DNA of 64,000 bases from Cristatella mucedo (lineage: Eukaryota > Bryozoa > Phylactolaemata > Cristatellidae): assembly GCA_009760855.2 (NCBI GenBank), contig WPIO01000003.1, forward strand, positions 8,268,001 to 8,332,000, written 5' to 3'. Under the pieces are notes generated by a model, which ran no database searches, had not been told where the DNA came from, and worked only from the letters and a program-made list of their open reading frames with translations. Position 1 is the first letter of the stretch, and each line of letters begins with the position of its first letter. Positions 1 through 48,840 of this stretch are shown piece by piece. Made by a program: the position numbers and the translations under genes.

Positions 1-1148
1 AGAGCTGTAGAACATTCGGGAAAAAAAGCCTCTACGCGCTAACAGTGTGCAAGTGATAGAGGATGCCGAATGTATTGCTTAGGATAGACCGGAAGACGCG
101 ATGCGGCTGAAACTTGGAGGACGTAAATGAGGATGCCAATGGCTTGAAAACAGCGCCTTGAATTAGTAAGGCTTCGACTAACAGTGCCGTGGCAAGGCTC
201 GCAATCTCCATCTGAGGGCATGGAGGATGAGTACAATGGGATCTAAGCGTGACGAACTCTTTTTTACCCGTCTTAATTTAGTTACTGCATCACCTGCGGA
301 AACCCGATGAGGCAACAAGCTTTCCATTTCGTTGTGAAACAAGGGCCACTTAACAGCCGACACCGTCATCGTAGGAATGAGACCGTCAACTTGTTCAGTA
401 AATAATCCACATGTCCCTTAAACTTAAAATGACAACGGAAGAACCTAGATCCCGAAGTAAATCGTAATCTTCCGTCTCGTAGCGTGTGAGCATATGAACG
501 GATGAACGGATAGATTCTGGCTTATTCAAGATATGCGTATCCGTCGCCTTTAGTCAGATACCGTATCTATGGTTTTCTCGGTGCATTTTCTAGGATTGTC
601 AGTGAACAAAAATATACCACTAGCAATATTACTGCTTTAATGTGCTGGTTTTCGCGGTCGCTGCAGTCTAAATAGTGAAATAAATCATTCCTCCCCGCGC
701 TAGAGAGCAGCCTCGGGCGACTTCGAGCACGATTTGGACCTTGACATGACTTCTTCGTGATACATTCGGGTATTCCGCTGATATCTTCTCTGCGACTGTT
801 CATGATCTGTCCTCGGACACGCTACCCAAAACAGGACCTGATTTAGCACAAGGCGTGATGTGCCATCAGTAAATACTCACATGGCGGGCCTTCTTCGGCG
901 GGTGAGAAAGAACCTCCGTACATCCTGCGTTTGCTATATCAACCGCTCGGTTATCAAACCGTTTAAAGTGCTGATCAACACACGCTGCGGTAGTAGCTTA
1001 CTCGTTGTGCCTCAGCATGTCATGAAAAGTCGACCGTCGGCAGTTACTAAGGTTCTGTTTCAATTCGTAGGCCCAGCGTATGCCTGGCCGGCTGAATGCC
1101 ACCTAGCATGCAAGCCACGCAGTTATCGGCGGTGCAGTTGTCGGACAG
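1..1148. other. No recognisable gene; unassigned sequence
   Basis: Only short ORFs of 60-100 codons on both strands, none with a recognisable motif or convincing splice sites. The part after about 860 could be upstream sequence of the retrotransposon fragment that begins near 1149, but I cannot align it to anything by eye. Confidence 0.4.
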
Positions 1149-10115: not shown

Positions 10116-10207
<92 letters not shown>

Positions 10208-10227
10208 GAGAGAGAGAGAGAGAGAGT

Positions 10228-10259
<32 letters not shown>

Positions 10260-10331
10260 CAGAGAGAGAGAGAGAGCTGAGAGAGAGAGAGAGAGAGAAG
10301 CAGCAGAAGCAGTATTTGACACCCATTCGAG

Positions 10332-10381
<50 letters not shown>

Positions 10382-19238: not shown

Positions 19239-19373
19239 TGTGTCTCGATCCGTTACATTACGACATGTTTCGAAGTGAGAAGCAGCAACCAAAGAAGGAT
19301 TGCCAATCCATCCAAATGAGCAAGCCAACAAAACGGATAGACCAAGAATCAGAGCGCCAGTCGGTTTTAGAAG
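19239..19373 (+). CDS. Unknown gene, exon with first ATG
   Basis: Coding from ATG at 19265: MFRSEKQQPKKDCQ...ERQSVLE, donor GTATCT in phase 1. A good acceptor (tttttataccacag) at 19238 suggests 5' UTR is spliced onto it, or that an upstream coding exon exists, since the frame is open to the acceptor. Confidence 0.5.
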
Positions 19374-22300
19374 GTATCTTGAGGTTTACTTATCTGTTGT
19401 AAAGTAGAGATAAAGGTGGGCTGATTCAACAGCCTCATTGTTATAGCGGCATAAGAGCCTTAACGGCTGTCACCGCCCTTGCTTGCACAGGCAGTGGACA
19501 ATAAAGGGTTGTCTGTTGCAGGACTAGGACCTATGATCTGAGTCGTGAAGCACAAGTACCTTAGCACTTCATTAAGACTTATGGCGCAGATTCTCTTGTG
19601 TGCAATCCTTTGAACTGCCACACGACAACCCAGTGCTTCATTTATCTTGGCTGCATCGGCAAACAGACTAAAATCTGCCTGTGCAATGTGTTTTTTTTGC
19701 ATTGCTTGACCAGAATCCTACCTTCAGTTTTTAGAACCCGTGCAGACGCCGATGGCGGCAGTGGTGCAATTCTAATCAACGATAACTTAGTCTTTAAGAA
19801 TGCCGCAAAAGATAGCAGGGCTGCAGGTATTGTGCTCTACTGGCAGGCCGACCAGAGATTTATCTGTGGTGCACCATTTCTATGCGGCGATATAATTTCG
19901 TCATCTTTTGTCTATGAAGGGTATGCTACCGATGCATTGTGGTAGAAAGTGAGTCCTTAACCCAAAGTAATTGCGTTGAGAAACGGAGGCTATCTATTGT
20001 TTTTGTTAAGAACCTGCACCGAAATAACCTTGCAGGGAAGAGTCCAAGCGAGGACCGCTCGGCTGAATCCCAAAAAAAGAAGCAGCGTAGGACCCATGGC
20101 GAGCTCGATGATCTTCACTTGAAGGTAGTATTTCATCATGTGATCTACGGCTTAACGTGGTCTTGTTACATTTTTGACGTGCTTGTGCTCGTATGACGAT
20201 GTTGTAAAACCATATTGAGCAAGTACAATTTGCATTATTATACTAGCATTTCTGTATAAGGCAATGTACTGGCTCATGCGATTGTATTGAGTCGCTAATC
20301 CCAAATAAATCAACGCTGCCTTGCAACAGTACTTGCATTCTTCAGTTGCATCTATTTCTCAACGACTAGCACCTGCCCGCTTCTGATGTGCATTGCCTTG
20401 CTTGATCCTTGCAGTATTTATAATGAAATTTTGGAAGGCACAAGTTGCACATCCTTTTCAGCGGTCCTGAGCTGCTACTTCTATGCTACTCACTACATCA
20501 ACTGCTCTCCTGACTCTGCTATGCTTCCCACTTTCTCTTTGTTGCGTGAGACGAAGTCTGTTGGCTAGCGAATGCGTACCGAAACCCGCTTAGGCTGTGA
20601 GTGCGCTATACAAAACTCTCCTGCGTAACACCCACATAGTCTTTATGACTTTGTGGAGTTACAGACGGAGATACATTGTATACATTTTTACAATGTTGTG
20701 CACATTGCAGCTATAGATGAAGCAACAATAGAAAATTGCAGCAAACAATTCAATGTTCATGTGCCACTAGTCCATACACGTTATTTTACAGTAATAATAG
20801 GCGACATGTAATTACTTGCTCGTCCTAGAAATGGAAGCAGCCTGCCAGTGAGTTAATTCTGAAGTTGCAACCAAACATACGGCTGAAATATGGCACAGAA
20901 CATGGGGGAAGCACGTGCTCCAAAGGGACTTTTCTGGAAAGAAAAAGAGAAGCAGGAGATGAAACCAGCTTTCCCATTGATTGTGAAGTGTAATAGCTAG
21001 CCGAAGACCTTTGTAGGTCTGAGACTTCGATTAAATTTACCAAATCAATCAGATCTGTTCTAATTCGCAGCTTTTGACTGCCCAAAATCTGAGAAACACT
21101 ACCAAAAGTGAGAAAATATAAATATATATATAAATATATATAATTCATTTGTATACCGCCCTTAGAGAGCTAGATCTCTATTCAGGCGCTTTATATATGC
21201 CTTGGAACTTGATCCCACGACCTTAGCCACACTTTGGTCGGGGCGAGCACCTAAACCGCTGGACCAAACCAGCTCGGCGAAAGTAAAATACAAGTATTTA
21301 ATTTTTCTTTTGGGGTGAGAAAGCCAAACGTGTTATTGCCACGGTATAAAACTCAGGTATTCCTGCTTGCAAAATGTCCCGCCTATGCCGATTTAGTAGG
21401 ATATTGACTGCAAGCTACTTTAGGCTTTGGAGTTTTGAGGTGTTGAATGATTCTTATGTTGGATCCTTCTTCTTCTTTTTCAGCTGTCGAAGAAGAAGGA
21501 GAAAAATAAGGAAAATAAACACCCACATAGCTCCTCAGAATTTAAAAGGCATGCGAACAATGTGGAAAAGCTTTCAAGCGTAAGTAGCAGTAGTTACACA
21601 CTCTAAGATGCTGCTCGTGCTATTTCATACTCTTAATGAAGCTGATATTTAAGCTGACCTCTCTGACCATCCTTGTGCAGTAATGTAAAGTATCTCAGTC
21701 GTAACTCCAACAAGCCATAAGGACTAAATGGCTGTTGCCCTAGAGATTTTTCTAAGTATACTGAGAGCCTAATAAGCTTTCGATGCACATACGGTAGCTA
21801 ACAGATATCAACCGAAATCAACAGAAAATGAGAAACATAGCTGAGTCAGGAAGGCACTCGAGGAAGTGAGTAAGTAGCATGGAAGTAGCAGCTCAGGACG
21901 GCTGGAAACTATGTGTCACAGTTCGCAGCAGGAAAGTAAATTTCGTTGAAAAAGAATTGTGGATGTGAGTCTTGCAGAGCAAAAGCTTCTGTTGTTCCAA
22001 AAGTCTTTAAGTTAAAGAATGAAACAGCTAATTTAATGTCCACGGGACCATTGGGCATGAGGAGGCCAAGACTAGTGAAGCAGTTTAACCAGGTATGAAG
22101 GAGCCAAGCCGTGACGGGTCTTGTGGGTCAAAGTAAAAATTGTGTTCTTTATATGTTGATTAACCGGAAGCCATCGCAGCTTCTTCAGCAAATTAGACTC
22201 TTGGCTGAACCTCTTGGATGTATGTAATTTAATCGTGCAGTCACATTCACTGCCAGCTGCAGAGTATTAATAGCTTTTTCGGTAGGTCCGCCAAAGCTGA

Positions 22301-25300
22301 ATTAGAGTAGTCTAGTCCAGACAGAACCAGGGAGCATTTTTGTAGCCAGGAAGCTACTAAGATCTTTAGCTTGCTGCTCAAAATCTCAATCGTACCCCTC
22401 CTCTTTTCTATTGCTGTCAAGATCTTCATCTCCTTGGGTATGCTATGCAGAGTGTGTCTGTATGTGCAGCATCGTTGGCATGCCTCACAGCACCTCTTTC
22501 CATCACACTTACTGTATTCTTACCGGACTTGAATGCAAGAAAACGGAAGACACTGGCCAGTTTTGGTTTTGGATCTACGTTTTACCAGGTTCAGCGCGAA
22601 GTTCTGGGCGGCATCGCCGGTCTGGTGGCTTCACACAGGCTCACGGTACGTACTTTTTTCCATTGCCACCACTGTCGTAGTGTAAATAACAGTACAACGC
22701 CCTAGCATTACACAGTGAGCAATCCTTTAACTTCAGACTAACGTTGGTATCTTCAACAAAGGCAAGAAGTCGGCCACACTAAGCAGAGGTATTGTTGCTG
22801 CTGCTTCTTCTGTTGTTACCATCGCAGCTGCTGCTGATGCAGCTGCTCTCCGCATGGACGTCTCTGGCCACTGCATCGACTCGGCAACGCGATTGAACTC
22901 GTGGTATTTCACTTGGATCCCTGGGCTGTCTACTGGCGATGGAACTCATCGCATCACGGTGCCATAGTTGCATTTTTTTAATATAATAATAATACATTTG
23001 GTATAGGTCCCTCAGAGAACTCAATGTTTAGCACCTGCCCACAATCCATGCATCTCTTACTAGGCGCTTTACATTTGCTGCAAAGAAAACACGATCGAAT
23101 GGTTAGTGTAAGCATGCTCAATAAACAACAAGAATAATATGGTTAGGGGTGATATGCACAGGGTCAGCATGCAAGTTTGGTTATTGGCAGCATGCACAGT
23201 GTCAGCATGCATAAGTACATAAAGGACGAATCACAGTGGCCCACTAAATGCTGTGATTAATAGATGTGTTTTTAGTTTCTTTTTAAATGTGGATAAGTCA
23301 GGAGTTGTCATGACACAAGTCGGAAGTAAGTTCCGTGCTTTGGGAGCATACAAACTAAAGGCAAAGTTTCCAAATGATTTGAGGTTTGTACGAGGTATTT
23401 CTAGACAGTTAGATTCCGAAAAGCGGGTGGTACGATGCTTGGCCTGGTGGAAAAGTAGATCCGATAGGTAGGCTGGAGCCAAAGAATGAAGGTTCCTAAA
23501 AGTGAGTGACAAAACGTTGAAGTCGATGCGTTGCTTGACTGGGAGCTAGGTCGGCAAAAAGTGGTTGATGTGGCAACTTCACCACTCACGACAGACAAGC
23601 CTAGCTACAGAGTTTTGCACCAGTTGTAAACGCCTGATTGCTCATGCCCGTAGACCAGCAAGTCAAGACAAGATGTCGCAAATGCGTGGATCAATTTAGA
23701 TGTGGTATCCCTGTCTAAAAAAGCTCGAATTTAAGCAATATTATGATGCTGAAAGTAGGCAGATTTGACTGCGGAGCTGATGTGATCGTCGAATGGGTGG
23801 TCACTTCTGGAACATGACACCTAGATTTCATGCAGATTCAACAGGAGCTATGCTGGCAGAGCCGATTTTGAGTTTTAGCCTTTCCAGTTTCTGAATCACA
23901 CTTGGTTTGCCCAGAACTAGCAAGTTGGTTTTAGCATCATTCAATTTAAGAAAGTTTGCGGCCATCTATGTTCGGATGTCATCAAAACATGCAGCAAGGG
24001 AGTTGAGAGAATTCGACGTGCGGTAGGGCTGGGAGGGATCAAAGCAAAGGTAAAACTGAGTGTCATATGCACAGAATTGAAAGCCAACGAGCCATAGAAG
24101 TGCATGCTACTCAAAGATTAACTTTTAGGTGGGTTTTAGTAGAAGGCTTTTAACGTTTGCGGCGTAGCTAAATGGCAGTAACTTCGGTTTTTTCCTTAGT
24201 ATCGCTGGGATTTCCTCTGTCTCCTCTCAGGCGCCCTATCCCTGGTGGGATATGGCCCCGAAGGGGGCTTCGACCTTCAGCCGGCCTCTTTGCTGGCTCA
24301 CCAGCACTTTTGGGTATGCTGCCCAATAACTCGGGCGCTAAATCTTCGAAGTCATGCTTCTCCCATCGAATCTGGCTTCGGAAATTGCTCAAGAACTATA
24401 GTTTTTTTATTTCCCATTCAACCAACGTATTGGCTAAAACCTTCCTGGTGTAGGATGGACATGGACAACTAGCGTCGTGTTTCCATCTTTCTTCCATCTG
24501 CGCTCGTACTCGGCTCGTGCTTGCGCTTGCACGCACGTGTGGCTGTGCTAGCCAGTCCAGCATGGTAGCATGTCTAAAACCTGAATGCATGATGTCTGAA
24601 CCTCGAAGCACGGGGGTGTGCCTATGGGTGTGACCGAGCCTGCCTGTTTTGCTTAGCGTTATTTCTTTTAGGGCTCTTTGCTGCAGATGCAACACGGCAG
24701 GCTGTGGACGGTTGGCCTGCCATCACGAAGTGAGTCGTCTATCAATCATTTGAAATTCAATCTGACCTGCCGGCACTCCTGTCTCTAGTCAGGTCGAAGC
24801 AGCATGATCTGCTGTGACAGTCACCGTTTGCTTGCATCCCATCCGACCCCATGATGCTTCTTGGCACGTGAAGGCTGTCTTCGTGTGCTGCAAGCTGTCA
24901 GGGGCAGCAGACTCTTTATCAAGAGCCTTGACAAATTGTTTCACGAAGCCCAATTGCATGTGTAGTGGGGGCACCACCACCATCTTTCGCAGATCCAAAA
25001 TTGGCTTCGACTTGACAGTGTTGTTCCACTGACTGACTGACTTTGACTCCGTCGTTCGTGTCAAAGAAATATTTTACTTCGACGAAGAGCAGCCTGCTGC
25101 AAAGAAGCAGCAAACAGTCAGCGCCGCCATATCACGGTTATAGTGTGTGGCTGCAATCCACAGGGCGTGCTGCACTAGCCAGCTCGCTCGTTGTAGAAGT
25201 GGCATCTGCCGTCGCGTGGCCTGGGGCTGGATTTCTCCTGCACGAGTGTGACAGCAGTTTAACAAACCGCCTTTGCCGGGCCTCAATTTGTCTCCCTGGT

Positions 25301-28300
25301 CTACCGGATCTTAGAGGTCACGACCTGGGTACGAAGCCGGTTAGCTTTCTAATGGGGCAGCCACAGGTCGCAGAGTGGGGCCAGCAATCACACTTTGTGG
25401 CCCGATATAGCCTGTCACTGTTGCGTGCAACTTTCCTGAGTCAGCAGGCATTAGACCGGTGAGCTACAGCTCCACTCACGATGCTAAGGATGAACTAGAA
25501 ATGCTAATCTCTCGACGTCACTGGTAGTACGGCAGCAGGCCCGTGGCTCCGTCGGATAACAGAAAGCTCGTGACGCAGCAAGATGGGGTATTCCAGTCAC
25601 GCAGCAAGATGAAGCAGCGGTGTATTCCATAACAGAACGATAGTGACTCAGCAAAGCAAGTCCACAGGCTGATCGTAGCCATTGCCGGAGCCTCTTGCTG
25701 AGCTCCCAGCCAAATAGAGATTAACACAAAGGTGAAAGTAAAAGTTACTGGTAGTTAGCAAAAGTCATCGAGCGCATCGATGTACGCACGTGTGTGCTTG
25801 CTAATATTAGCTGTAAGCGAGATGTTAGTAGCAAAAAAAGCGCTATTACCCGTGGCCATGCAATGAGCAATGGAGGGGATATAATAAGGGGGATGCATGG
25901 GATCAAGTGCTGAGTTCGGCGAAGTAAGTGCAAGCTTGACTGCTTGCTTGTTGTAGTCAATCATTGCAGATCCTACTGCGTGGACCACGGCCACTTAATA
26001 CTTGCTCTCTCACTTGTGAAATAGTCGCTAGGTGTAACTTGCGATTTCTGGGCAATGCCCCTACTTATGTTAGGCATATTAGAAACAGTGAATACAGTAT
26101 GAACAACGTTTGAACGTGTGAATATTAATTCGATGAACAATTTTAAAATTTCAGCATGATCGAGACAGATTACAATGGTTATTTGATGGCATGTCGTGCC
26201 CTCTTTGATTGAGCAAACATGGTACGGTTAACATAAGACGCGAAGAGCTTTGCCTTGAGTTTTTAGCCATCGGATGGTTGCATTTTTCTACTTTGCATGA
26301 ATGCAATCATATTATTAATGCAATCACATGCATCCATGGTGTGTAACTTGTTGGTGAAACTTGCAACAACCTCTGCTCTAGCTGCCAGCCACAGCTTGCA
26401 GGCATACCGTTTGTGGCTTGTGGATTTTTGAGACAAGCAGGTTCATGTACTATCCGTGCAAGCGGTTCTCCAAATCAAGATGATGTTTAGCATGTTGCTG
26501 TCAGCGGGCTGCAGGTGTTAGCCCGTGGTATGTAATACACTGACAGCACGTCAAGTAGAGTCCATAGCAGTGAAAAGGTACCAGGGAATCTCTTGATCAT
26601 CAATTCACGGGCATCCATGTTACTACCTTCTTCTTGAGGCAAGGAGCAAGAGCTAGGTAATCTCTGAACAAGAATCTGAAGAGAAAGCCTGACCTGAAGG
26701 AGACGTTAGGGGAAAGCCTTCAGGTGCTGTCGGATATTCTTTCTGTCAAGCAATAATGCAGACATAGCTCACCCAAAGAGGTGTAGAGTATGTAGTACCG
26801 ATAGTCTGGCACGTGTCAGACGACACCTAGAAAAGCCTGTTGATTACGTTGCGAGTTGATTTAAATTAAGAAATTAGTCAAAAAAGTTACAAAAAGTTGC
26901 TAAATTAACACTTCAAATAGGTAACACTTCAAACAGTTGCTTAACTCCAGTTCTGTTCATGAGCCACTCGATGGACTTTATTTTAATTTATATGTATGCT
27001 TGAGTTTATTTAAAGAAGAAAAATGTACATTTACGGGGCTAGCTTAAATGTAAATGCACTGGCAGGGCTAGCCTAACTTTGTGCTGTTTAAATGCAGAAC
27101 TTGCTATGGATTATATGCCTCCACTTTCGATGTAAATGTATCTAGCCCCTGCTGATGATGTCATTCATTCTTCGCCGTATGATGTGGCTTTTTTAGGCCT
27201 TTGGATCTAGAAGCACCCAACACTGATAGCTCACCGAGCATGCTACAAGAGAGCAGAAGGTTAGTCAGTCTGTTGGTGCAGAATTTGTATGCCAGGCAGC
27301 AGATTATTGCTGCATGATTATATCTATTTGTGTGCATCTTTCAGTCTTATCAATTGAGTCCCCATTGAATCATTGCAAAATGAAGTTCTCTGTGTGTAAG
27401 CATATGCAGAGTTTGTCATTATAATACCCCAACCAGCCCTCTTTTATCCCCCGAAATAGCTCTATATTTTTTATGTTCTGCTATGCATGCTAGCTGTGAT
27501 ATACATAAACAGAAGAAGTAGAAATGACCACATTGTATGTGTATGTCAGTAGAGTTAACTGACACCGCATGATCGGCTTTGATTTGAGATGATCATTTGA
27601 ATGTCTATCGCCATTAAATTTCTAAGATTTATTTTGTCATGCAACCGACATGTTTGCTGCAGTGATTAGCAGTGGCTATGCAGTATCGTTGGAGAGAAGC
27701 AGTTGATCTGTTTTAATCACTGGGTAGGCTTGACTACATCAGCACATATTACAGTATACACAGTGCTAGCCCTAAAAGAAAAATTCAGGCACCCCGGGAT
27801 TCAAGATTGTAACTTCAATTATTTCAGTGTTTATGGACTGCTGTCCAACAGATTTAACCAAAACTTAGGATTTTCACGAGTTAGCAATATTTTTAACAAC
27901 TCGTGCATGCTACCACATTGGTTTGCGAATAGGTGCAAAATATGCAATTGACCTTGTTTAGCAGTATGCTAAGCAATATATAGCTATAGTCAAAACATTT
28001 CTGATGATATTCTTTCCGATAGAATGTCAGAGTACTAAAAAGTAAGGCCTACTAGATTTTCCAACTATATCTCCAAAAATGGTATTGCAACCATTGGTAG
28101 AGCCAAGATGTCGGTAGAGGGCATGCCCCCCCCCCCCCAAGAAGAGGCCTGGGCCACCCCCTAACCTGGGCCACCCCTAAGCCCAAGTTTCGGCATTCAC
28201 GAACAACGAAATTATGTCCTATATCCAGTCCATGAACAACCGCAGCATGCATGCCGAATAAACACCATGATTACGAGCTACAATTTTTGATTACTTCTGG

Positions 28301-39048: not shown

Positions 39049-39097
<49 letters not shown>

Positions 39098-42000
39098 TGT
39101 GTGCGTACACGTGTGCGTGCGTATGTGCTTGGGTGTGTGTGCGGCGCGTGTGCATGCGTGTGCATGTGCGTGCCTGTATGTGCATGCCATTTGCCTTAAT
39201 AATAATATATAATAATAATAATGTACTTGATAAAGCTCCCTCAGAGATCTTAATCTCTTTCTAGGCGCTTTACATTTGCTGCAAAGGGAAATGCAATTGA
39301 ATGATAAGTAAAATCATGCTTGAAAAACAAACAGTACTTCTAGAGCGCCTCTCATCTCGCCTGGGCATCACTGGCACTGCTCTGCAGTGGTTCAGGTCCT
39401 ATCTCAGTGGGAGACTCCAGAGTGTTGACGTGAATGGACAAAGATCATCTGAAGTACCTCTAAAATATGGAGTACCTCAGGGCTCTGTGCTAGGTCCGGT
39501 CCTTTTCACCGTTTATACTCTCCCTCTCGCTGATGTGATTGCCAAGCACAATCTAGGCTTTCACTTCTATGCGGATGACACTCAGTTGTACCTTTGCTTT
39601 GATCCCTCCCAGCCTTCGAGCACCTCAAATTCTCCCAACTCACTTGCTGCATGCATTGATGACATCCGATCATGGATGGCAGCAAATTTTCTAAAACTAA
39701 ACGATGATAAAACTAACTTACTAGTTATGGGCAAACCTAGTGTTATTCAGAAATTGGAAAGGCTGACTTTCAAAATTGGCTCTGCCAGCATATCTCCAGT
39801 TGCATCAGCTCGAAATCTAGGTGTCATATTCCAAAGCGACCTCTCGTTAGACGACCACATCAGCTCCACAGTCAAATCAGCCTATTTTCAGCTTCATAAC
39901 ATTGCTAAAATTAGGGCTTGTTTAGATAAGGATACCACGTCCAAGTTGGTCCATGCATTCGTGACATCTCGTCTCGACTTCTGCAACTCACTGCTTACTG
40001 GCCTACCAGCATGTGCGATCAGGCGATTGCAGCTGGTGCAAAACTCTGCAGCTAGGCTTGTCTGTCGTGAGCGTCGCAGTTGCCACATTACTCCACTTCT
40101 CGCCGACCTGCACTGGTTACCAGTCAAGCAACGGATTGACTTCAAGGTTTTGTCGCTCACTTTTAGGTCTCTTCATTCTATGGCTCCAGCCTATCTTTCA
40201 GAGATACTACCCCATCAGGCAAAGCATCGTACCACTCGCTTTTCGGAATCTAACAGTCTAGAAATACCTCGTACAAAGCTTAAATCCTTTGGAGACCGTG
40301 CATTTAGCTCGTATGCTCCCACAGCCTGGAACTCCCTCCCGACCTGCATCAGATCATCCCCTGACCTGACCACATTTAAAAGAAACTTAAAAACATACCT
40401 ATTTAGGACAGCATTTAGTGGGTCCTTGTGATTCGTCCTCGATGTGCTTATGCGTGCTGACACTGTTTATGCTGCCACTAACCACATTTGCATGCTGACC
40501 CAGTGCATGTAACCCCTAACCATGTTATTCATTTTGTTTGTTTTTCAAGCATGATTTTACTTACTATTCTATTGCGTATCACTTTGCAGCAAATGTAAAG
40601 CACCTAGAAAGAGATTAAGTTCTCTGAGGGCGCTTTATCAAGTGCAATATTATTATTATTATTAAACAAAATGAATAAAATGGTTAGGGGTGACGTGCAC
40701 AGGGTCAGAATGCAAATGTGGTTAGTGGCAGCATGCACAGTGTCAGCACGAATAAGCACGTGAAGGACGAATCACAGGGACCCCCTAAATGCTGTCCTAA
40801 ATAGGTGTGTTTTCAAGTTCCTTTTAAATGTGGTCAGGTCAGGGGATGTTCTGACGCAGGTCGGGAGGGAGTTCCAGGCTTTGGGAGCATACGAACTAGA
40901 TGCACGGTCTCCAAAGGATTTAAGGTTTGTACGAGGTATTGGTAGACTGTTGGATTCCGAAAAGTGGGTGGTACGATGCTTGGCCTGATGGGGGAGTATG
41001 TCGGAGAGATAGGCTGGAGCCATAGAATGAAGAGACCTAAAAGTGAGCGACAAAACCTTGAAGTCAATCCGTTGCTTGAATGGTAGCCAGTGCAGGTCGG
41101 CGAGAAGTGGAGTAATGTGGCAACTGCGACGCTCACGACAGACAAGCCTAGCTGCAGAGTTTTGCACCAGCTGCAATTGCCTGATCGCACATGCTGGTAG
41201 GCCAGTAAGCAGTGAGTTGCAGAAGTCGAGACGAGATGTCACGAATGCATGGACCAACTTGGACGTGGTATCCTTATCTAAACAAGCCCTAATTTTAGCA
41301 ATGTTATGAAGCTGAAAATAGGCGGATTTGACTGTGGAGCTGATGTGGTCGTCTAACGAGAGGTCGCTTTGGAATATGACACCTAGATTTCGAACTGATT
41401 CGACAGGAGATATGCTGGCAGAGCCAATTTTGAGAGACAGCCTTTCCAATCTCTGAATCACACTGTGTTTGCCCATAACTAGTAAGTTAGTTGTGTCATC
41501 GTTTAGTTTTAGAAAATTTGCTGCCATCCATGTGCGGATGTCATCAATGAATGCAGCAAGTGAGTTTAGAGAATTTGAGTTGCTCGAAAGCTGGGAGGGA
41601 TCAAAGCAAAGGCCTTCTACTGACAGCTGCAGATGTGAGCTCAGATGCTAGCCTGCTAGTCTGGTAGCCTCTAGTGTGGCGCTAGAGCCCTCTTGAATTG
41701 AGAGATCCCCTTTAAAGACTCGAATTTTTTCGGACATCTGTCGGTCGGCAATGTGCTCGAAGGGCTTTTTGGGGTTTTTTACTGGTCTATGCCAGCTGTC
41801 TGTATACTCTCTACTCCACCTATTCTCACTGTTCTCTGTTGAGTGTTTTTATCCTGTTTACAGTTTTTTTTGCAGTATACTATTTTTTATGAATTTTGAA
41901 AATAAAATAATATAGTTATTAATATTTGCGCATGGAACTGGAGAACCGCATCTTGACATCGAAAGAGCCGCATGCGGCTCGCGAGCTGCAGGTTGCAGAT

Positions 42001-42140
42001 CCCTGGTCTATGCAACAGCTTTCAACGCTCTACTAGAGAGCTCTTGGGTACCTATCATCCTACTTGAAGTGTGCAGCTGCTAACACGGCTCATTGTTCAG
42101 TGAGAGTTTCTATATGCCAAGTAAAGCGTGCACACACACA

Positions 42141-42175
<35 letters not shown>

Positions 42176-45100
42176 CCACTAGCAGCCATTGCTGTGTGAC
42201 TGTGTGAGCATAATTGGGCTCCCTGTACCATCAAGTGATTTATGGAATAAAGCAAAGGTTAAGTGATTTAACAGCCTCGTTTAAATGGCAGCAGAGGAGC
42301 CTTAATGGCTATTCGCCATGACCTGCATTGGGCAATAAGAAGTTTCCACTGCAGGACTCAATCCTGCGACAACCTGGGTCGTGTAGTGCGAAAAGCTTAC
42401 CCCTTGGCAAAGACCTGTGGGCATGCTGAGATCCAAGGGCATCTGGTCCATTTATAACTGATGTCGAAATTGCGATAATCGAAAATATTGTAATTAAAAT
42501 AGCCAGTGGCTCTTGATATTGAGGAACTCATATAACTTCTGATCCGAAAGAAAACATTGCTGTGGCAAGGCCAAGACCAGTCATTAATCATCGGAAAGAG
42601 CAAAGTTTGTGGAAAATTGGACCTGAGGTCCAAAATCTGCTTTATGCAGTGAAGAATGTGTGCTGGATTACTGGTGATGCTGTCACGATAGGCACCACTT
42701 TTGCAAGTAGATTTAATTTGGAGACTTAATACAATCGTATTTTCAGTCCTTGAGTAGAATGATGTGGGTGGAACTTATGCTATAATGACCTTTTTGGCTT
42801 AATGCTCCCATCCACGATCTTTGCCTTGCAAGAAAAGTCTAAATGTCTGGCTGTAGCTCAGGTGTTTAGCAGGCTCAGTTTCAGTGCAATTGTAATGCTC
42901 TGTTTGAACTCTGCTGGCAGTAGGACTTGTTGGAGGTCAATTGGCACCAGCCAACACTTTGTTGCCATCTGTGCCTATGAATGTAACGTGGGTACACGCC
43001 GTCAAACGTTCGGGAGCTTTATTTCCTGCAATCATGGACATGTACAGCAAAATTCATCCAACCGAAATCAGAAATAATGTAGCATCATATGGTAAAAGGT
43101 GGCAAGCAAGGCTGAACTCGAATTTCAAATTTCACTCTGGTACTAATAAGTATAAGCCGAGTTATGGAATGTACAAGGCATCAAGGTACGCTAAAAATGA
43201 AGCTGTTTAAAAGTCACATGAATGCACTTCAAAAAGCTTCACACATGGACCTCGATCTGCCAAGTTTAAAAAAGTTAGGTTAAAAGTCACATAGGATACA
43301 GAGATCGTTGAATATTTTAGTTGTAGATGCATTTCTTCCGGTTTACATCCATGTTAGGCTGGTTTGCATAATCATTTTTTTTATATGGAAGTCATCAGAA
43401 CTTCCGATCTCGTTTTAACATGTTTGTCTTTTGATAGGTACCATAAGCAAAATTTTGATTGTCGAACACATTTTATAAATATTGTTTTAGTTCTTCCTTA
43501 TCATAAAACGTGCACCCTTCGAATTGTACGTCGGAACTATGGTCTTCATTTGCCGAGTGGAAATAAGTTAGTGTGTACTTCCTCTGATTCGTGAGCACAT
43601 TTTTTCTCTGATACAGGTGATTTAGGTGATTGCTTGATCAATCCTCGTAGCTTGCTTCAGCTAAACGACAAGGCAATGCTTAATAAGGCCAAGCAACACT
43701 GGCAGTCCATGCCTGGGCATCCAAGTCCTTCTTGGTCGACTCATGATGGTCACTCTTCCACTCGGCTAATTACGGAAGAGGAGTGTCATCACCCAAATGA
43801 TACTATGCATGATAGTATAGTGGGAAGATTGATGGACGACGATATATCGCTGAACGTCACAAGATTCCATCAAAGCCCCGTGCATCCAGCCAGCGGGGAT
43901 GCTTCGTGGGCAGCTGGTACGCCCATAAGAAACTCATTGGTTGAGAAATTAGCAGCTGAGCAGGCGGTGAGTCACACGGTGACTGTTCCATGCCTCCTAC
44001 CTTTGTGTCACACTGAACAGAATGCTTCAGCCGGCTGGCTGGCTGTGTTTGGGTAGTGAATGACCCCACTCATTTGCAGATGTTTTCTGGCAGGGCATTG
44101 CCATAGGGCCGAGCTTGTGTCTGCCAGTTTCTAGTCGCACATATGTAGAAATAAGACATGCTGCTGGCTTTAGAGTCACCCCACCTGCCATGCATTTCTC
44201 TAGGATGCACAATTATATGTAGTGTTAATCTAATCTGCTAGCTCAGTGATCCTGGGAACTGAGAATTTCAGTAATAATAATAATAATGCATTTCATATAG
44301 CACCCTTGGAGAACTCAACCTCTTTCTACGCACTTTGCATTTGCTGCAAAGGAAGCATGATCAAATGGTTAGTGGTAGCATGCTCAATAAACAACAAGAA
44401 TAACATGGTTAGGGGTGACATGCACAGGTGAGCCTACCACTCAGTATGTGGCTAAATTGACATTAATATTGGCTTGCACGAAGAGTGAAATTGCGATGGA
44501 TAAAACTCGTGCTTATTTAAAAGTAGTTTTCGGGTAAAAAAAAACTTCCTCACAATTCCTTGACTGTTTAGTATGTACGAGCAATATGTGACACATGCAG
44601 AGCAAAACAGCTAGTGTGTTCTATAGACTCTTGATATATACCCACACTTGCGTAGTGTGTGCAGATATCCGGAATGGGGAGAGCCTAGCTTGTAAGTCGA
44701 GAATCTTAGCCTTGCAAAATATGTTCCCACAAAAGCCTTCTTATTGCAGCCGGTGTGCATTTTATCAGTCGAGCTGGTGAATGGAGCTTACTCTACTTTC
44801 AATGTAATGTGTATCCAAGCTGTAACTCCACAAAGCCACAGAGACTATGTGGGAGTTACACTGGAGAGCTTTCTGTAGCCCAATCAAAGCCTAAACTGTT
44901 TTCGGTACGTATTTGGTAGCCAAAAAACTTCATCTCACTCAACAAAGAGAAAGTGAGAAATATAGCTGAGTCGGGGGGGGGGGCAGTTGAGTTAGCAAGT
45001 AGCATCGAAGTAGCAGCTCAAGAATTTTGGAAAGGATGTGCCACAGTCGGCAGCAGGAGAGTAGATATCATTGCATAGGAATTGTTTTCCACAATCTAGG

Positions 45101-48100
45101 ACCTGCAGAACAAAAGCTTCTGTTGACAAAGGTCTTGAGCAGACGAATGGAGTAGCAATGTACTTCCATAGAGGACCTGAGAGCACGAGGAGGCTGAAGC
45201 TAATGAAGCAGTTCAGTTAGGTATGAAAGAGCCCAGCCGTAGCGATCATGGTTGCTCAGCGTAAGAACTTTAGTTGAGAACTCTGTATCAATTGATCAAC
45301 CGAAAGCCATCAAAGCTCCTTCAGCAAAGGAGGCACATGATGGTCATACCTCTGGAATTTATATACTAGCCCCACAGCCATCTTCATCACCAGCTGCAGT
45401 GGCCTAGTTTTCGGTAACCCAGCCAAAATGGACTTGCAATAATCTAACCGAGACAGACCAAGGAGCTAGTTAATTTTGTGCAAGCCACCGTGGAAAGCAG
45501 TCCCTAATCTTAGATAGGGATCAGACGTTACGGTAGATGTGGAAGCAGCCTTATTAACGAAGCTGTCCAGCCGCTCAAGCTCATTGTTGACGCTAAGGCT
45601 CTTCTGATTTTATATCAGTGAGACTATTGGATCAGCCAATGTTTTCTTTCACTATTATTTACAAGCACTGAAATTAGTAGTCCTTTAAGTGCCTTAGCTG
45701 CAATAGTAGAGTCCATTGCTACTCCCAGTTAGAACATTCTGCTCGAGTGGAAAGACTACTCCCAGTTAAAACATTCTGCCAAAGTGAAAAGATGTCGTGA
45801 AGAGTCGGCACGAAGCGTTTACACATTAAACAAAGCGCAGGGCTCAGCTGCAGACAGATTGTCGGGCTTGCTTTGTTTGCTCATAGCTCCGGAGTATTGC
45901 TGATCATGTGCTGCCGTTGGGCGAGTGAAGGACCAGGTGGTAATGTAGGATACGGCAGCTCGAGGCCGGCTGCCTATCTACACAGCAGTCCCCTGAACCA
46001 CAGCAGTCATCCTATCACCAACAAAGGCAGTTGCCCTTCGACTAGCTTGCATACCTAGCTTTTGACACGAGGGAGGGGACATCACAATGTGCCATGGATT
46101 TTGGACTGCTGAAAGCCATTCGGCCAAAGCCGTTAGGTTCTATGGTAGCATGGGAAGGCTCTGCTTTTGTAGCTGCTGTACTATATCTCGGTAGTACTAG
46201 ATGGGCTGACACAGTATCTGGCGAATGAAATGATTAATTAAAGTCTTAGTCGTAGAGCCGACGAAGTGACTGCTCCTTGAGCAGTGACTATTGATGGCAG
46301 TGGCGACTGCCACCTCATGCTAATGGTGACCATCCCTTCGCTCGGGCCTAACCTGCAAGGGGATGATCTGCAGCATTATCCATCGCTTGCTTCGTGCTGC
46401 TAGGAAGGACCAGACTAGGGAAAAAGCAGTGACAGGCTGAAGAAGCGTTAGTGATATGCTGTGGCAAAATTGCGTTAGTCATCACCTCTAAAACATGCAA
46501 TGGGGGAATCTTAGCATCAGTGTAGGATGGACCAGAGCAGCAAACATCTTACAACCGGCAAGCATGTCCCCGAAAAGCAGCATGATTCCGTTTAGCAGGT
46601 GGGGTCTACGACCCTCATCGTGGGTTCAAGTCCAGCCAAAGTTAATTATTTTTATGCCGACTATAAGTGGTTTGTTGATGCTAAGAGCTCTTCTGCTGTT
46701 ATATCAGTGAGACTACTGGATCGGCCAATCTTTTCTTTCACTATGATTTACAAGCACTAAAATTAGCAGTCCCTTAAATGCCTTAGCTGCAATAGTAGAG
46801 GCCATTGCTACTCCCAGTTGGAACCTTCTGCTAGAGTGGAAAGACGTTGTGAGGAGTCGGCACGAAGCATTCACTCATTAAACAAGGTCGCCCACAGGCA
46901 GCTTGTGGGTAGCCAGCTTACAGGATGTTTCCTCCTCAGGCAGCCTTGGGTAAGACCAGTGAAACCGGTCTTGGGGCTAGCAAAACCGGTTCCAAGCTTG
47001 CGAAACCAGCTGATCAGACCTAATATCATTCCTCTATACATAATCTTTCTGAAAAGCATGCTGCCGTTCCAGCTGATCGGTTTCCAGAATGAAAGAAGGA
47101 ACCATCGTGTAGTGTTTGAGGCAACGTGGCAGCCAAAGTGCTGACTTCACCCGGTGGCACACGGTAGATTTCTGCAAAGCCCGAGCTGTGCTCTTTCAAA
47201 TTGGGGTGGAGTAAAGAGTGTTTTTGATGCTGAAGCATATGGCAGAGTCCAGTCGCACTGGCTCTCTCAATGATCGTCCGCTGACGATTCGATCAAGCAC
47301 CGAGTTGCTTCCAAGCTCATCAGTACCCAGAAGCTCTCCGGCGTTGCAGGCACTAGGCGCGTAAACGTGCACACAATGAAGTTTGAAGCCAATATAAAAA
47401 TTTAGAAATGACAAGATCGTAATGTCTATGGTGTCATGTTATCATCCCAAGTCTAATTTTGAACACGGTCGATACCCAACCAGCCAGATACCATTTGTAC
47501 ATTTGCTCCTCATTGCAGCAGACCCCCTTGGCAGATGGTTTAAGAAAATTGTGTATGCCGATGAATACTTCTATTATATAATTTACAGTCACATCATAAG
47601 TGTCAAATAAATTTTAAGATTAGTTTATAAATTAAGAACGCCAAGATGGAATTGCTATGGCATGGGCAGTTGGTCAACTACACCTCATTAAATTTGGGCT
47701 TTTAGATTGGTCGTATGTTTGTTCTGGACACGGTATACAGTGCAGTCCTCTCTTCCCTAAGGAATGGAAAAGCTCAAGTACACGACGCATGAGACGCACT
47801 GCAGTTTGTGAGAAGGAGAGCACAACCTCGAATCATTGCTATTTCTGTTGCGCCTCGTCAGACCTCGTCGCTCCAGCTAACAGAGGGTAGTGTCCCGACT
47901 GGTATGAAATAGCAATCTAAGATGGTCACTAACAGATTCAGTGTTGGCCATCTGTTTTTTTTAAGTCAAAGCTTCCCTACTTTTTCTCTCATGTCCTCCA
48001 GTTGGCCTAGCTAAAAGCATACCATGCTGCTCAACACGACTGCACACACAGCACCCCGAGAGCACGGTCAGTGAGAGCGGAAAGGACTAGCCCAGGCTCC

Positions 48101-48840
48101 GTCGTGCCCCTATTTCTGACTGGAGCATCAAAGTAGCTTCGTCTGCTCCGTGTTGACACGCTGAGTCAGGATGCTGGGTTGCCCCATCCTTTCATGTGCC
48201 TGCCGCCACATGCCCTATCATCAGATTTGTCATTGCCGTTGCAGCAGGTAACCCTTTCTCGATGGGATGTTAATGCCATCGGCACCTTCAAGACGATCTT
48301 CACCATATTTTGCCCTTTGGTTTTTATCTGTGGGCCTGCTGTAGCTGCATCTGCAGCAAATTGCTGTGCTCGAGCACGGCAATCTATTATACTGCCAATA
48401 AACTGCAGCAGCAGGCAGCTCGTGAGTGCCTCCCCCTGTGCTTGAGTTGGGCTCGGTGGGCTGTATTGCGTGACTCAGAGAAGCTCTGGGCAGTGTTTAC
48501 TGATCAGGAGCAGATTCTATGCCAAACACGCCAGTGTGCCTAGGCCATTTGAGATGCGTGAGCCAATGATAGCTGTTTCAAGAGGGAACAGCAGCTGTGG
48601 GGTGAGCGGGAGTGGGGTACACTGCCATGGTTCTGCTAGTACTGACAAAGGGCAAGTACTAGAATGAAAAAATGCAGCCTTCCTCCATTGTACTTGTAGG
48701 GACAGCAGCGTGCTCACGAAGCCGGCTTCCTTGCTTGCACTGGTGAAGGGGCCTACCTCTTCATGCGGAGACTGCAGAAGCCTAAAGTTGGCACACCAAG
48801 TCCACTGAATGAAAAACTGCAGCCTCGCAAAATGTTTTGA
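19239..48840 (+). CDS. Unrecognised multi-exon protein-coding gene (about 510+ residues)
   Basis: I do not recognise the family. The model rests on splice logic. Exons: 19265-19373 (from ATG), 19728-19826, 20036-20124, 21484-21579, 22451-22645, 22737-22788, 24231-24313, (26155-26177 tentative), 27197-27259, 33402-33499, 36876-36943, 43617-43966, 48170-48247, 48700-48840 (TGA). The first seven join without a break in frame, as do 27197 to 33402, 36876 to 43617, and 43617 through 48170 to the stop. Two joints (24313 to 27197, unless the 23-nt exon is real, and 33499 to 36876) need another exon. The N-terminal third is Lys/Glu/Gln-rich and disordered-looking (QKKKQRRTHGELDD, LSKKKEKNKENKHPH). 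The middle has VGIFNKGKKSATLSRG. The large exon is polar and His/Ser-rich. No signal peptide, zinc finger or enzyme motif is evident. Its head-to-head position with RSPH14 is suggestive of shared regulation only. Confidence 0.6.
19415..19545 (-). mobile_element. tRNA-derived SINE, family S1, head truncated
   Basis: Reversed body: GCTGATTCAACAGCCTCATT, AGAGCCTTAACGGCTGTCAC, GTTGTCTGTTGCAGGACTAG. It lies in the first intron of the unknown gene. Confidence 0.75.
19728..19826 (+). CDS. Unknown gene, exon 2
   Basis: The acceptor is ctaccttcag. It reads VFRTRADADGG and INDNLVFKNAAKDSRAA. The donor GTATTG is in phase 1. It joins both neighbours in frame. Confidence 0.5.
20036..20124 (+). CDS. Unknown gene, exon 3 (basic, polar)
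   Basis: The acceptor is accttgcag. It reads GKSPSEDRSAESQKKKQRR then THGELDDLHLK. The donor is GTAGTA, phase 0. Only this frame is open across the exon. Confidence 0.55.
20440..20705 (+). mobile_element. LINE B 3' UTR fragment
   Basis: Shared with 13648-13883 and, reversed, with 21695-22395 and 44810-45600. It contains TTTCTCTTTGTTGCGTGAGA, GCTATACAAAACTCTC and CTTTGTGGAGTTACAGACGG. Confidence 0.7.
21143..21276 (-). mobile_element. tRNA-derived SINE, family S2
   Basis: Reversed copy. The tail TAATTCATTTGTATACCGCC and AGAGAGCTAGATCTCTATTC is followed by the tRNA-like head ending CTGGACCAAACCAGCTC. Confidence 0.85.
21484..21579 (+). CDS. Unknown gene, exon 4 (lysine-rich)
   Basis: A strong polypyrimidine acceptor (cttcttctttttcag) and a consensus GTAAGT donor bound exactly 32 codons: LSKKKEKNKENKHPHSSSEF then KRHANNVEKLSS. 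The phase 0/0 exon continues exon 3 in frame. Confidence 0.65.
21695..22395 (-). mobile_element. LINE B fragment (RT C-terminus and 3' UTR)
   Basis: Colinear with 44810-45480 (GAAAATGAGAAACATAGCTG, AGTAGCATGGAAGTAGCAGC, ATGAAGGAGCCAAGCC...). On the minus strand it retains LVLSGLDYSNSALADLPK, the RT C-terminal 'SRLDYCNSLLAGLP' region. It stops just before the acceptor of the unknown gene's exon 5. Confidence 0.8.
22451..22645 (+). CDS. Unknown gene, exon 5
   Basis: 65 codons in phase 0/0 between gctatgcag and a GTACGT donor. It contains a short hydrophobic stretch (LTAPLSITLTVFL), a basic patch (NARKRK), and FGFGSTFYQVQREVLGG. A second frame is also open across the exon, but it meets a stop at once in exon 6. 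Confidence 0.55.
22737..22788 (+). CDS. Unknown gene, exon 6
   Basis: The acceptor is aacttcag; 52 nt read TNVGIFNKGKKSATLSR; the donor is GTATTG (phase 1). The intron upstream is only 91 nt. The FNKGKKS core has the look of a conserved linear motif, but I cannot name the family. Confidence 0.6.
22980..24110 (-). mobile_element. LINE A copy, 5'-truncated and degenerate
   Basis: Antisense (AAT)n tail, 3' UTR, then RT C-terminal coding sequence (HSLAPAYLSDLL, HRTTRFSESN) and further RT, back to about the YADD region, with frameshifts. It lies in the intron before exon 7 of the unknown gene. Confidence 0.9.
24231..24313 (+). CDS. Unknown gene, exon 7
   Basis: An excellent acceptor (tttcctctgtctcctctcag) and a GTATGC donor. 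It reads GALSLVGYGPEGGFDLQPAS then LLAHQHFW, in phase with exon 6. A LINE A copy fills the intron before it. Confidence 0.55.
24795..25130 (-). mobile_element. Fragment of a transposon-associated ORF (PPLHMQLGFVKQFVKALDK)
   Basis: On the minus strand, 24789-25064 reads NNTVKSKPILDLRKM then PPLHMQLGFVKQFVKALDK. From memory this matches a protein found in many copies in hydrozoan and arthropod genomes ('LLPPLHIKLGLMKNFVKALDK'), generally taken as mobile-element-derived; its class is unknown to me. Only about 60 residues survive, with frame loss on both sides, so it is a fossil. Confidence 0.55.
25131..26154. other. Intron of the unknown gene, unassigned
   Basis: A 139-codon plus-strand ORF (25043-25462) and a minus ORF (25755-25994, ending HTRAYIDALDDFC) are open but have no recognised motif. 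They may be remains of the mobile element next door. Confidence 0.25.
26155..26177 (+). CDS. Unknown gene, tentative 23-nt micro-exon
   Basis: The acceptor is aaatttcag and the donor is weak (GTTATT). Its 23 nt supply exactly the phase shift required between 24313 and 27197, reading HDRDRLQW across the joints. Position and length are the only support. Confidence 0.25.
27197..27259 (+). CDS. Unknown gene, exon (PLDLEAPNTD...)
   Basis: The acceptor is ggcttttttag; the donor is GTTAGT in phase 2. It reads PLDLEAPNTDSSPSMLQES. It joins the 33402 exon in frame. Confidence 0.5.
27260..28085. other. Intron of the unknown gene, unassigned
   Basis: AT-rich, with no recognisable repeat or ORF of note. 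Confidence 0.35.
28090..28342. mobile_element. Candidate MITE with inverted ends (hAT-like termini)
   Basis: The left end GGTAGAGCCAAGATGTCGG...GAGGGCATGCC mirrors the right end ...TGCCCCTACGTGGAAATCTTGGCTCTGCCCC, giving inverted repeats of about 35 bp around a 180-bp AT-rich centre. A C14 run sits inside the left end. 'CAGGGGCAGAGCCAAGAT' is similar to ends of known hAT-type MITEs. The target-site duplication is not clear. Confidence 0.55.
28885..29112 (+). mobile_element. LINE B fragment (RT C-terminus)
   Basis: Reads LTSSLVLSRLDYSNSILAGL in the plus frame, then a frameshifted continuation to 'CTTCGATGGCTTCCGGTTGA' (the 'LxWLPVD' motif of RT C-terminal regions). Confidence 0.75.
29128..29427 (+). 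other. Unrecognised 100-codon ORF between two LINE B segments
   Basis: A continuous frame ends in TAG at 29425-29427. It contains NIILRKGDLNQKRLHNPKM, LEILLSRLRDDLCQQLIPD and VKQRIRRRTQMPEN. The composition is protein-like and helix-rich, and no retrotransposon motif is visible. It lies inside an intron of the unknown gene, and both flanks carry the same LINE B segment. It could be a captured exon, an unrecognised transposon ORF, or chance. Confidence 0.3.
29455..29524 (+). mobile_element. LINE B short fragment (direct repeat of 29055-29112)
   Basis: Repeats 'GATGGCT.C.GGTTGATC...CAAAGTTCTT.CACTGACCCACGAG' found 412 bp upstream. Confidence 0.65.
29560..30107 (+). mobile_element. LINE A 3' portion
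   Basis: Starts in the RT C-terminal region (KQQIDFKVL, then stops and frameshifts) and continues through LRTSPDLTTFTKNLKTHLF, the 3' UTR, the AGAAAGAGACTGAGTTCTCC tail and (ATT)n. Confidence 0.9.
30283..30446 (-). mobile_element. tRNA-derived SINE, family S1
   Basis: Reversed: GCTGATTCAACAGCTTCATT, AGAGCCTTGACGGCTATCAC, then the head 'CTTATTCCTGAGCTAAGACC'. A (GATTT)n run lies immediately upstream. Confidence 0.85.
30450..32095. other. Intron of the unknown gene, unassigned
   Basis: No recognisable repeat. Short ORFs on both strands (30579-30791, 31211-31411, 31362-31616) lack motifs. Confidence 0.35.
32098..32215 (-). mobile_element. tRNA-derived SINE, family S2, partial
   Basis: Reversed tail TAATTCATTTGTATAGCGCC, AGAGAACTTAATCTCTATTG, then part of the B-box and A-box region (GGCGAGCACCTTAAG). 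Confidence 0.8.
32278..32560 (-). repeat. Dispersed repeat, family D
   Basis: Second copy of the 12340-12600 repeat. Read on the minus strand, it ends in CAATAGAGATTAAGTTATAT...AGGGAGCTATACAAACAA plus an (ATT)-like tail. Confidence 0.7.
32855..33018 (-). mobile_element. tRNA-derived SINE, family S1
   Basis: Reversed: AAAGCCTCACTCCTATAGTT, then CTGCAGGACTCGAACCCACG and CTTACCCCTGAGCTAAGATC (intact-looking B and A boxes on the minus strand). Confidence 0.85.
33402..33499 (+). CDS. Unknown gene, exon (PPYEQLSKRLNTYLQ...)
   Basis: The acceptor is ttcttgttgcag; the donor is GTGATG, phase 1. It reads PIDRSNVQAAPPYEQLSKRL then NTYLQSTALFDQ, a probable amphipathic helix (Y..L...L..YL). The other two frames hit stops. 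Confidence 0.6.
33690..33815 (+). mobile_element. LINE B 3' UTR fragment
   Basis: Shares 'GTGCTTAGGCTTTGAGTGC.CTGC/AGAAAACTCTG' and 'CTTTGTAGAATTGCAAATGG' with the other LINE B ends. Confidence 0.5.
33816..34339. other. Intron of the unknown gene, unassigned
   Basis: No repeat recognised. A possible small exon (34021-34055, reading SSSTRKNSYLS) was considered, but it does not give the required phase. Confidence 0.3.
34340..34739 (+). mobile_element. Fold-back element C, left arm and centre
   Basis: An arm of about 250 bp (AAATATTTGTATAGGGTATC, CTGACGACTTCTACATAAAA, GTGAACCAGAAGCAACATAT) is repeated in reverse at 35856-36115. The centre (TTTTTAAAAGCCACGAGCAT...) recurs at 43195-43260. A LINE A copy is inserted exactly at its right edge. 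Confidence 0.7.
34740..35850 (-). mobile_element. LINE A copy inserted in fold-back element C
   Basis: Antisense (AAT)n tail at 34740, then 3' UTR and RT coding back to the QLYLCFDPSQP region. It is 5'-truncated near 35845. The frame is broken (missing 'TC' in the PTC region near 35050, and near 35405 and 35605). Confidence 0.93.
35856..36115 (-). mobile_element. Fold-back element C, right arm
   Basis: Inverted relative to the left arm. Read on the minus strand it gives TCAAATATTTATTCAGGGTA, CTGACGACTTCCACATAATA, GTAAACCAGAAGCAGCATAT. The 55745-55995 copy matches it most closely. Confidence 0.7.
36116..36875. other. Intron of the unknown gene; contains an unassigned ORF
   Basis: A plus-strand ORF at 36128-36331 reads FETTLNRQADEKNGIAQMVL then LLPEVSEANLVTYRGYRNV. 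It looks protein-like but has no recognised family and no clear splice sites in the phase needed here. A minus-strand ORF (36556-36753) contains LRLLLQAERGMQPRLPIIK, also unassigned. Confidence 0.25.
36876..36943 (+). CDS. Unknown gene, exon (acidic/serine-rich)
   Basis: The acceptor is ctcatttgcag; the donor is a consensus GTGAGT, phase 1. It reads RTSDVSEQTSASEGESVDVT then AY. Both other frames contain stops. It joins the 43617 exon in frame as AYG-DLG. Confidence 0.6.
36944..39040. other. Intron of the unknown gene, unassigned
   Basis: A 130-codon plus ORF (38100-38492) ends in a short internal duplication (CTTGAAGCATG.ATTAACAGGA twice). No other structure is recognised. Confidence 0.3.
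39046..39190. repeat. (GT)n microsatellite, degenerate to the right
   Basis: Pure GT for about 45 bp, then GT with CG/CA interruptions. Confidence 0.95.
39198..39332 (-). mobile_element. LINE A 3' end, left part of an interrupted copy
   Basis: Antisense (AAT)n tail to GCTTGAAAAACAAAC. It continues at 40665 (AACAAAATGAATAAAATGG), where other copies have the two sequences side by side. Confidence 0.9.
39333..40664 (+). mobile_element. LINE A copy, young, nested in another LINE A copy; RT C-terminal half
   Basis: The open frame (to TGA at 40429-40431) begins VLLERLSSRLGITGTALQWF, has GVPQGSVLGPVLF, the catalytic FYADDTQLYL, then the long C-terminal region ending LFRTAFSGSL, followed by 3' UTR and an (ATT)n tail. 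It is 5'-truncated in the RT palm, so it is not autonomous. Over the shared ~367 residues I count four differences from the 51701-53761 ORF. Confidence 0.95.
40665..41615 (-). mobile_element. LINE A copy, right part of the interrupted copy
   Basis: 3' UTR and a 251-codon RT C-terminal frame (40772-41527, with SLKIGSASISPVESVRNLG). It continues back to the CFDPSQLSSN region and is 5'-truncated at about 41615. It belongs to an older subfamily than the nested copy. Confidence 0.93.
41940..42007. mobile_element. Right end of an hAT-like nonautonomous element
   Basis: AAAGAGCCGCATGCGGCTCG, then GAGCTGCAGGTTGCAGATCC and CTGG. This resembles the subterminal 'GCAACCTGCGGCTC...GAGCCGCATGCGGCTCTTT' palindrome of many hAT elements, with a terminal CAGGGATCTGCAACCTGC. 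The matching left end is not found nearby. Confidence 0.5.
42131..42173. repeat. (CA)n microsatellite
   Basis: CA dinucleotide run of about 42 bp with one interruption. Confidence 0.95.
42262..42420 (-). mobile_element. tRNA-derived SINE, family S1
   Basis: Reversed: AGTGATTTAACAGCCTCGTT, GAGCCTTAATGGCTATTCGC, CACTGCAGGACTCAATCCTG, CTTACCCCTTGGCAAAGACC. Confidence 0.85.
42421..43084. other. Intron of the unknown gene, mostly unassigned
   Basis: One segment (GAGCTTTATTTCCTGCAATC, ATGGACATG) recurs near 56250-56285, so part belongs to a dispersed repeat. Confidence 0.35.
43085..43520. mobile_element. Fold-back element C, centre plus right arm
   Basis: The centre is in plus orientation (AGCTGTTTAAAAGTCACATG, CTTCACACATGGACCTCGAT), followed by the arm in minus orientation (TTCCGGTTTACATCCATGTT, GGAAGTCATCAGAACTTCCG). 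This is the same order as left centre plus right arm in the split copy. Confidence 0.65.
43617..43966 (+). CDS. Unknown gene, largest exon (117 codons)
   Basis: The acceptor is cattttttctctgatacag; the donor is a consensus GTGAGT. It reads DLGDCLINPRSLLQLNDKAM, then AKQHWQSMPGHPSPSWSTHD, then SIVGRLMDDDISLNVTRF, and ends RNSLVEKLAAEQA in phase 0. Polar, with the composition of a real protein and no repeat similarity. This is the strongest single exon of the gene. Confidence 0.75.
44268..44430 (-). mobile_element. LINE A 3' terminal fragment
   Basis: Antisense (AAT)n tail, then 'GCACCCTTGGAGAACTCAACCTC' and TTGCATTTGCTGCAAAGGAA. Older subfamily, nearest to the 22980 copy (AATAAACAACAAGAATAA). 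Confidence 0.85.
44810..45600 (-). mobile_element. LINE B copy (RT C-terminus and 3' UTR)
   Basis: On the minus strand it reads GLSRLDYCKSILAGLPKTRP, LQLVMKMAVGLVYKFQRYDH, then VPPLLKEL, the C-terminal RT signature, interrupted by stops. Confidence 0.8.
45590..45840 (+). repeat. Direct repeat unit 1 (about 220-250 bp)
   Basis: Colinear with 46670-46890: TATATCAGTGAGACTA.TGGATC, TTAGCTGCAATAGTAGAG, TGCTACTCCCAGTT, GAGTCGGCACGAAGC. Unit 1 has a short internal duplication (CTACTCCCAGTTA.AACATTCTGC twice). Confidence 0.85.
45841..46587. other. Intron of the unknown gene, unassigned
   Basis: No recognisable repeat or coding signal. Confidence 0.35.
46588..46715 (+). mobile_element. tRNA-derived SINE-like element at the start of repeat unit 2
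   Basis: The B box CGTGGGTTCAAGTCCAGCC is followed by 'GCTAAGAGCTCTTCTGCTGTTATATCAG', similar to the S1 body. It joins directly to the duplicated 46670-46890 sequence, so that sequence may be the body of a longer SINE. Confidence 0.5.
46670..46890 (+). repeat. Direct repeat unit 2
   Basis: Second copy of 45590-45840, lacking the internal duplication. Confidence 0.85.
46891..48169. other. Intron of the unknown gene, unassigned
   Basis: Short ORFs only (47657-47890 and 46818-47144, plus strand), without motifs. A small internal repeat of 'AACCGGT' occurs near 46960-47005. Confidence 0.35.
48170..48247 (+). CDS. Unknown gene, penultimate exon
   Basis: Exactly 26 codons between gagtcag and GTAACC: DAGLPHPFMCLPPHALSSDL then SLPLQQ. 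It is phase 0 at both ends, joining the large exon and the last exon. Confidence 0.55.
48700..48840 (+). CDS. Unknown gene, last exon and stop
   Basis: A strong acceptor (ttcctccattgtacttgtag), then 46 codons and TGA: GQQRAHEAGFLACTGEGAYL, FMRRLQKPKVGTPSPLNEKL, QPRKMF. An AATAAA at about 49472 is a possible poly(A) signal, some 630 nt downstream. Confidence 0.65.
   Translation, partial: GQQRAHEAGFLACTGEGAYLFMRRLQKPKVGTPSPLNEKLQPRKMF

Follow-up and report, generated by a model that had tools for sequence, protein, structure and literature searches.

A predicted eleven-exon gene without a Pfam or PDB family, head to head with RSPH14 in Cristatella mucedo

Ordinary multi-exon animal genes that lack a Pfam domain have GT-AG introns, short exons, a divergent neighbour and dispersed repeats within their introns. 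The candidate gene described here, which lies on the + strand of a 64,000-nucleotide stretch of the Cristatella mucedo genome (the window), resembles such genes in all of these respects; unlike them, it receives no family from Pfam or PDB. Its divergent neighbour is RSPH14, encoded on the - strand at 2925-17632 (start codon about 17632, stop about 2925); when the exon pieces of this gene are joined, they hit chains named "Radial spoke head 14 homolog" with E values of 1.2e-71 and 2.9e-64. The two genes occupy one locus on opposite strands, but whereas RSPH14 is a HEAT/Arm-type protein with solved relatives (E 1.2e-71), the candidate is without a match in either library.

The intergenic stretch and the surroundings of the locus

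RSPH14 and the candidate are arranged head to head, with their start codons about 1.6 kb apart. Head-to-head genes often have a promoter in common, and transcription of the candidate would leave this 1.6-kb stretch (GC 0.41, CpG observed/expected 0.97) in the direction opposite to that of RSPH14, which would use it as well. A search for X-box-like sites with the standard 2-base spacer, allowing up to 3 mismatches, found none in 17633-19264 and 27 in the window as a whole, where chance predicts 24. Some 0.3 kb 5' of the RSPH14 start codon, at 17938-17953, GTTGCTGCTTAGCAAC pairs two X-box-like half sites across a 4-base spacer; it was noticed by eye, and the spacer of the X-box consensus is narrower than 4 bases.

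Several other elements were observed in the window. Long GA- and GACA-type microsatellites (2159-2590 and 10119-10298) lie between RSPH14 exons. The minus strand of 51701-53764 carries an uninterrupted frame of 687 codons in which Pfam recognises a reverse transcriptase (RVT_1, E 9.1e-31). Retroelements such as this one, the introns and the RSPH14 gene together give the sequence the content of an animal genome. At the far end, 62001-64000 reaches a GC content of 0.56 and holds several open frames; it had no Pfam match and is perhaps the beginning of another gene.

Exon structure of the candidate

The minimal chain comprises 11 coding exons on the + strand (19265-48840) that encode 385 residues with no internal stop and end in TGA; the stop lies about 29.6 kb downstream of the start codon. 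The chain was assembled by splice score and phase from exons chosen by eye, partly on splice score and with their translations in view. It has what a spliced protein-coding gene has: a single frame, GT-AG borders, a start and a stop. Taken together, the splice-site scores far exceed the local AG/GT background, a comparison that is inflated because those scores had themselves guided part of the selection by eye. The initial annotation had described twelve exons mostly joining in frame to a proper stop; the join to TGA holds, as do the peptides it quoted (FNKGKKSATL and QPRKMF) and the placement of the eight borders examined, at 19239, 21579, 22451, 22645, 22737, 36943, 43617 and 48840, all of which fall at AG, GT or TGA, while the count in the minimal model is 11. 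It had also remarked that the required frame is the only open one in several exons, and this is the case for six of the ten non-terminal exons; two frames are open in three others (21484-21579, 27211-27259 and 33624-33672) and three in one (22589-22645).

Exon 1 (19265-19373, residues 1-36) begins with an ATG that has an in-frame stop 42 nt 5' of it. An AG resembling an acceptor precedes 19239, and exon 1 may begin there, behind a non-coding exon. Its codon score was equalled by 1% of open stretches under the RSPH14 codon model and by 7% under the kinase model described below. Exon 2 (20036-20124, residues 37-66) is rich in Lys and Arg, and exon 3 (21484-21579, residues 67-98) contains a KEN triplet and has the best acceptor of the set; neither has a second copy in the genome. 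Exon 4 (22589-22645, residues 99-117) was originally drawn as 22451-22645; its donor and frame are retained, and the start at 22451 is less favoured than that at 22589 (acceptor scores of 2.5 and 4.9). Together with exon 5 (22737-22788, residues 118-134), which several gene-finder runs lengthen to 22903, it encodes a peptide running from VQREVL to FNKGKKSATL.

Exon 5 leaves one base over and exon 7 starts with one, so 22789-33401 must contain one exon or more that accepts two bases and passes on two. The minimal model closes this phase gap with the tentative exon 6 (27211-27259), which restores the phase (2..2) and has an ordinary codon score. No gene-finder run returned the start at 27211; a version at 27197-27259 in the same frame appeared in three earlier + strand runs and in one of eight masked runs. 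For this middle section the gene finder favours 24231-24313, 24672-24729 and 25164- or 25183-25458, which sit in mostly unique DNA. Its proposal of an exon at 28693-28757 was dropped, as that segment lies inside a dispersed repeat. In the same interval, 24903-25032 has few copies: other parts of the genome match it once at 80% and, over part of its length, three times at 76-79%. A minus-strand frame within it reads VVPPLHMQLGFVKQFVKALDKE, and it is perhaps a fragment of a mobile element.

Downstream, exons 7 (33402-33499, residues 151-183) and 8 (33624-33672, residues 184-199) were each recovered in four of the eight masked runs and have ordinary codon scores, and exon 9 (36876-36943, residues 200-222) was recovered in all eight. 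So were the large, polar exon 10 (43617-43966, residues 223-339), in which the required frame alone is open, and the terminal exon 11 (48700-48840), whose peptide includes PKVGTPSPLNEKLQPRKMF and ends in QPRKMF before the stop. The first exact AATAAA past the stop, a polyadenylation-type hexamer, lies at 49473-49478 on the + strand, in a window that contains 57 of these hexamers against 48 expected by chance, so that its support for the gene end is weak.

Codon usage, gene finding and copy number

Two codon models, both trained on sequence independent of the candidate, were used: one from RSPH14 (376 codons) and one from moderate-GC3 kinase exons of this genome (5 loci, 915 codons). For the null, stop-free stretches matched in length to the exons were drawn at random, as 200,000 sets, from both strands of the DNA at 19-49.5 kb minus the exons and known repeats. 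The 11 exons scored 49.0 with the RSPH14 model (null mean -16.3, standard deviation 13.9) and 27.8 with the kinase model (null mean -42.9, standard deviation 16.1), and in either case one of the 200,000 sets reached the score, the stretches in these sets not being conditioned on splice sites and the longest exon drawing on 104 overlapping stretches. As a whole, the 11-exon set thus resembles genes of this genome in its codon usage. Taken singly, exons 6, 7 and 8 (starting at 27211, 33402 and 33624) are unremarkable in this regard, and their support therefore comes from splice sites and phase.

The locus was also analyzed with a small dynamic-programming gene finder whose splice matrices and amino-acid prior were generic. 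With repeats masked, a penalty setting of 9 and RSPH14 codons, the + strand of 18-50 kb scored 65.1 versus 20.8 for the opposite strand; the corresponding controls gave 39.4 (RSPH14 antisense, 16.3 kb) and 10.6 and 13.6 (54-62 kb, 8 kb), with fewer chances of a high score because they are shorter than 18-50 kb. Without masking, the candidate strand scored 68.1; the opposite strand reached 23.6, and none of 30 Markov sequences exceeded 30.8. The unmasked RSPH14 antisense control outscored it, at 79.4, so the gene finder is not specific by itself; masking microsatellites and other repeats halves that control score (from 79.4 to 39.4). With mixed kinase and RSPH14 codons on masked sequence, the margin narrowed: the candidate scored 38.9 versus 27.5 for the antisense control at penalty 9 and 19.0 versus 17.4 at penalty 11. 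The positive control, RSPH14, which is also the training set, scored 109.0, with all 7 known pieces overlapped and 6 further exons added. Across the eight masked runs, between 6 and 10 of the 11 candidate exons were recovered exactly.

In a translated search of the whole assembly (572 Mb, 688 contigs), exons 10 and 11 returned four matches at E ≤ 10, of which two were their own and two were at chance level (E 2.14 and 7.91), and neither exon has a second copy. Exons 1-9 matched only this locus, bar one match at E 1.9, in a search with little power for the shortest exons, which found even themselves with E values of 0.02 to 0.6. At the DNA level, searches covering 19239-22000, 27000-29000 and 33350-37000 placed exons 1-3 and 6-9 outside the surrounding dispersed repeats. 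The initial annotation had named, as grounds for abandoning its gene, the large exon proving to be part of a repeat; that objection falls because exon 10 is without further copies in the translated search, and the exon does not appear to be repeat-derived.

Two inverted repeat pairs lie within introns of the model. The first (20448-20662 and 21701-21915) consists of opposite-orientation members of one dispersed element that flank exon 3, with three arm pairs that are 76-87% complementary (40 scored among 8341 first-look candidates); pairs of this kind around an exon can promote its skipping or the formation of circular RNA. Between the arms of the second (34360-34549 and 35919-36105, 80%) lies a dispersed LINE-type fragment (34739-35843), copies of which are 92-95% identical among the matches listed.

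Family searches and competing readings

Neither the fragments nor the joined protein matched a Pfam family with an E value under 0.08, the best matches being at E 0.087 (fragment) and 0.13 (joined protein). Scans of the + frames of 17600-36992 and 41700-49902 gave no family at its curated cut-off (best E 0.1 and 0.21). The joined protein had no PDB match at E ≤ 10, and a partial join reached E 1.6 at best. The libraries with eukaryotic sequences behind this result are Pfam, PDB and the organism's own genome; within them, the earlier statement that the protein could not be assigned to any family stands. Rfam gave nothing at gathering thresholds across the whole window, a literature search with peptide strings of the candidate matched no paper, and the papers found on RSPH14 and sponges were not relevant.

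The predicted product is basic (pI 9.1 overall), especially over residues 1-140 (pI 10.0), as well as hydrophilic (GRAVY -0.94), and contains one KEN (residue 75), three RxxL, seven S/T-P dipeptides and basic clusters. KEN, RxxL and S/T-P are known from proteins of the cell cycle and the centrosome and arise by chance as well; the KEN and RxxL motifs here, candidate degrons (KEN and D-box) of an APC/C substrate, are short enough for chance to yield them. The product may have a regulatory or scaffolding role and be disordered in part, perhaps acting in the cell cycle or at the centriole or cilium. We offer this role as a weak suggestion of low probability, to which the KEN, the S/T-P dipeptides, the basic clusters and the RSPH14 neighbour point; it is weak because the motifs also occur by chance and the intergenic stretch has no standard X-box-like site. 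It is very doubtful that the candidate represents a lineage-restricted new animal family with a cilium or centriole role and a divergent promoter in common with RSPH14.

Judged from the genomic sequence, the candidate is likely to be a real protein-coding gene, present in a single copy, that spans about 29.6 kb of the + strand, is transcribed away from RSPH14 and has a predicted product of 385 residues in the minimal model. The claim of a real multi-exon gene, made at the outset, is favoured by the codon statistics, the phase-consistent exons and the single copy. That the exons are instead the remains of a pseudogene, or stretches of intron or intergenic sequence that happen to be open between AG and GT, we regard as improbable: 30 kb offers many AG/GT pairs, and the unmasked antisense control likewise yields a high-scoring chain, but codon models trained on other genes score the set far above its null, 385 codons run without a frame break, and the genome contains no second copy. 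A division into two transcription units (exons 1-5 and exons 7-11 as separate genes), or a chain that is partly wrong and has other middle exons, is unlikely, though it is favoured by the 10.6 kb between exons 5 and 7, the weakness of exon 6 and the exons at 24231-25458 with which the gene finder spans the gap; against it, one exon suffices to bridge the phases.

The reading of a real gene can be specified further. The candidate is very probably an ordinary gene to which Pfam and PDB do not assign a family, and we lean slightly toward its having a known ortholog, conserved widely among animals but with neither a Pfam model nor a solved structure, in which case the choice of libraries alone would make it look unassigned. 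Pfam and PDB were the sole eukaryotic protein libraries searched, and both easily miss hydrophilic proteins; against such an ortholog, not even a weak family match emerged (best E 0.087 and 0.13 in Pfam, and 1.6 in PDB).

Animal genes without a domain assignment are common in themselves. If expressed, the candidate gene would add one more family-less gene beside a radial-spoke gene, and its divergent layout with RSPH14 makes co-expression in ciliated cells easy to examine.
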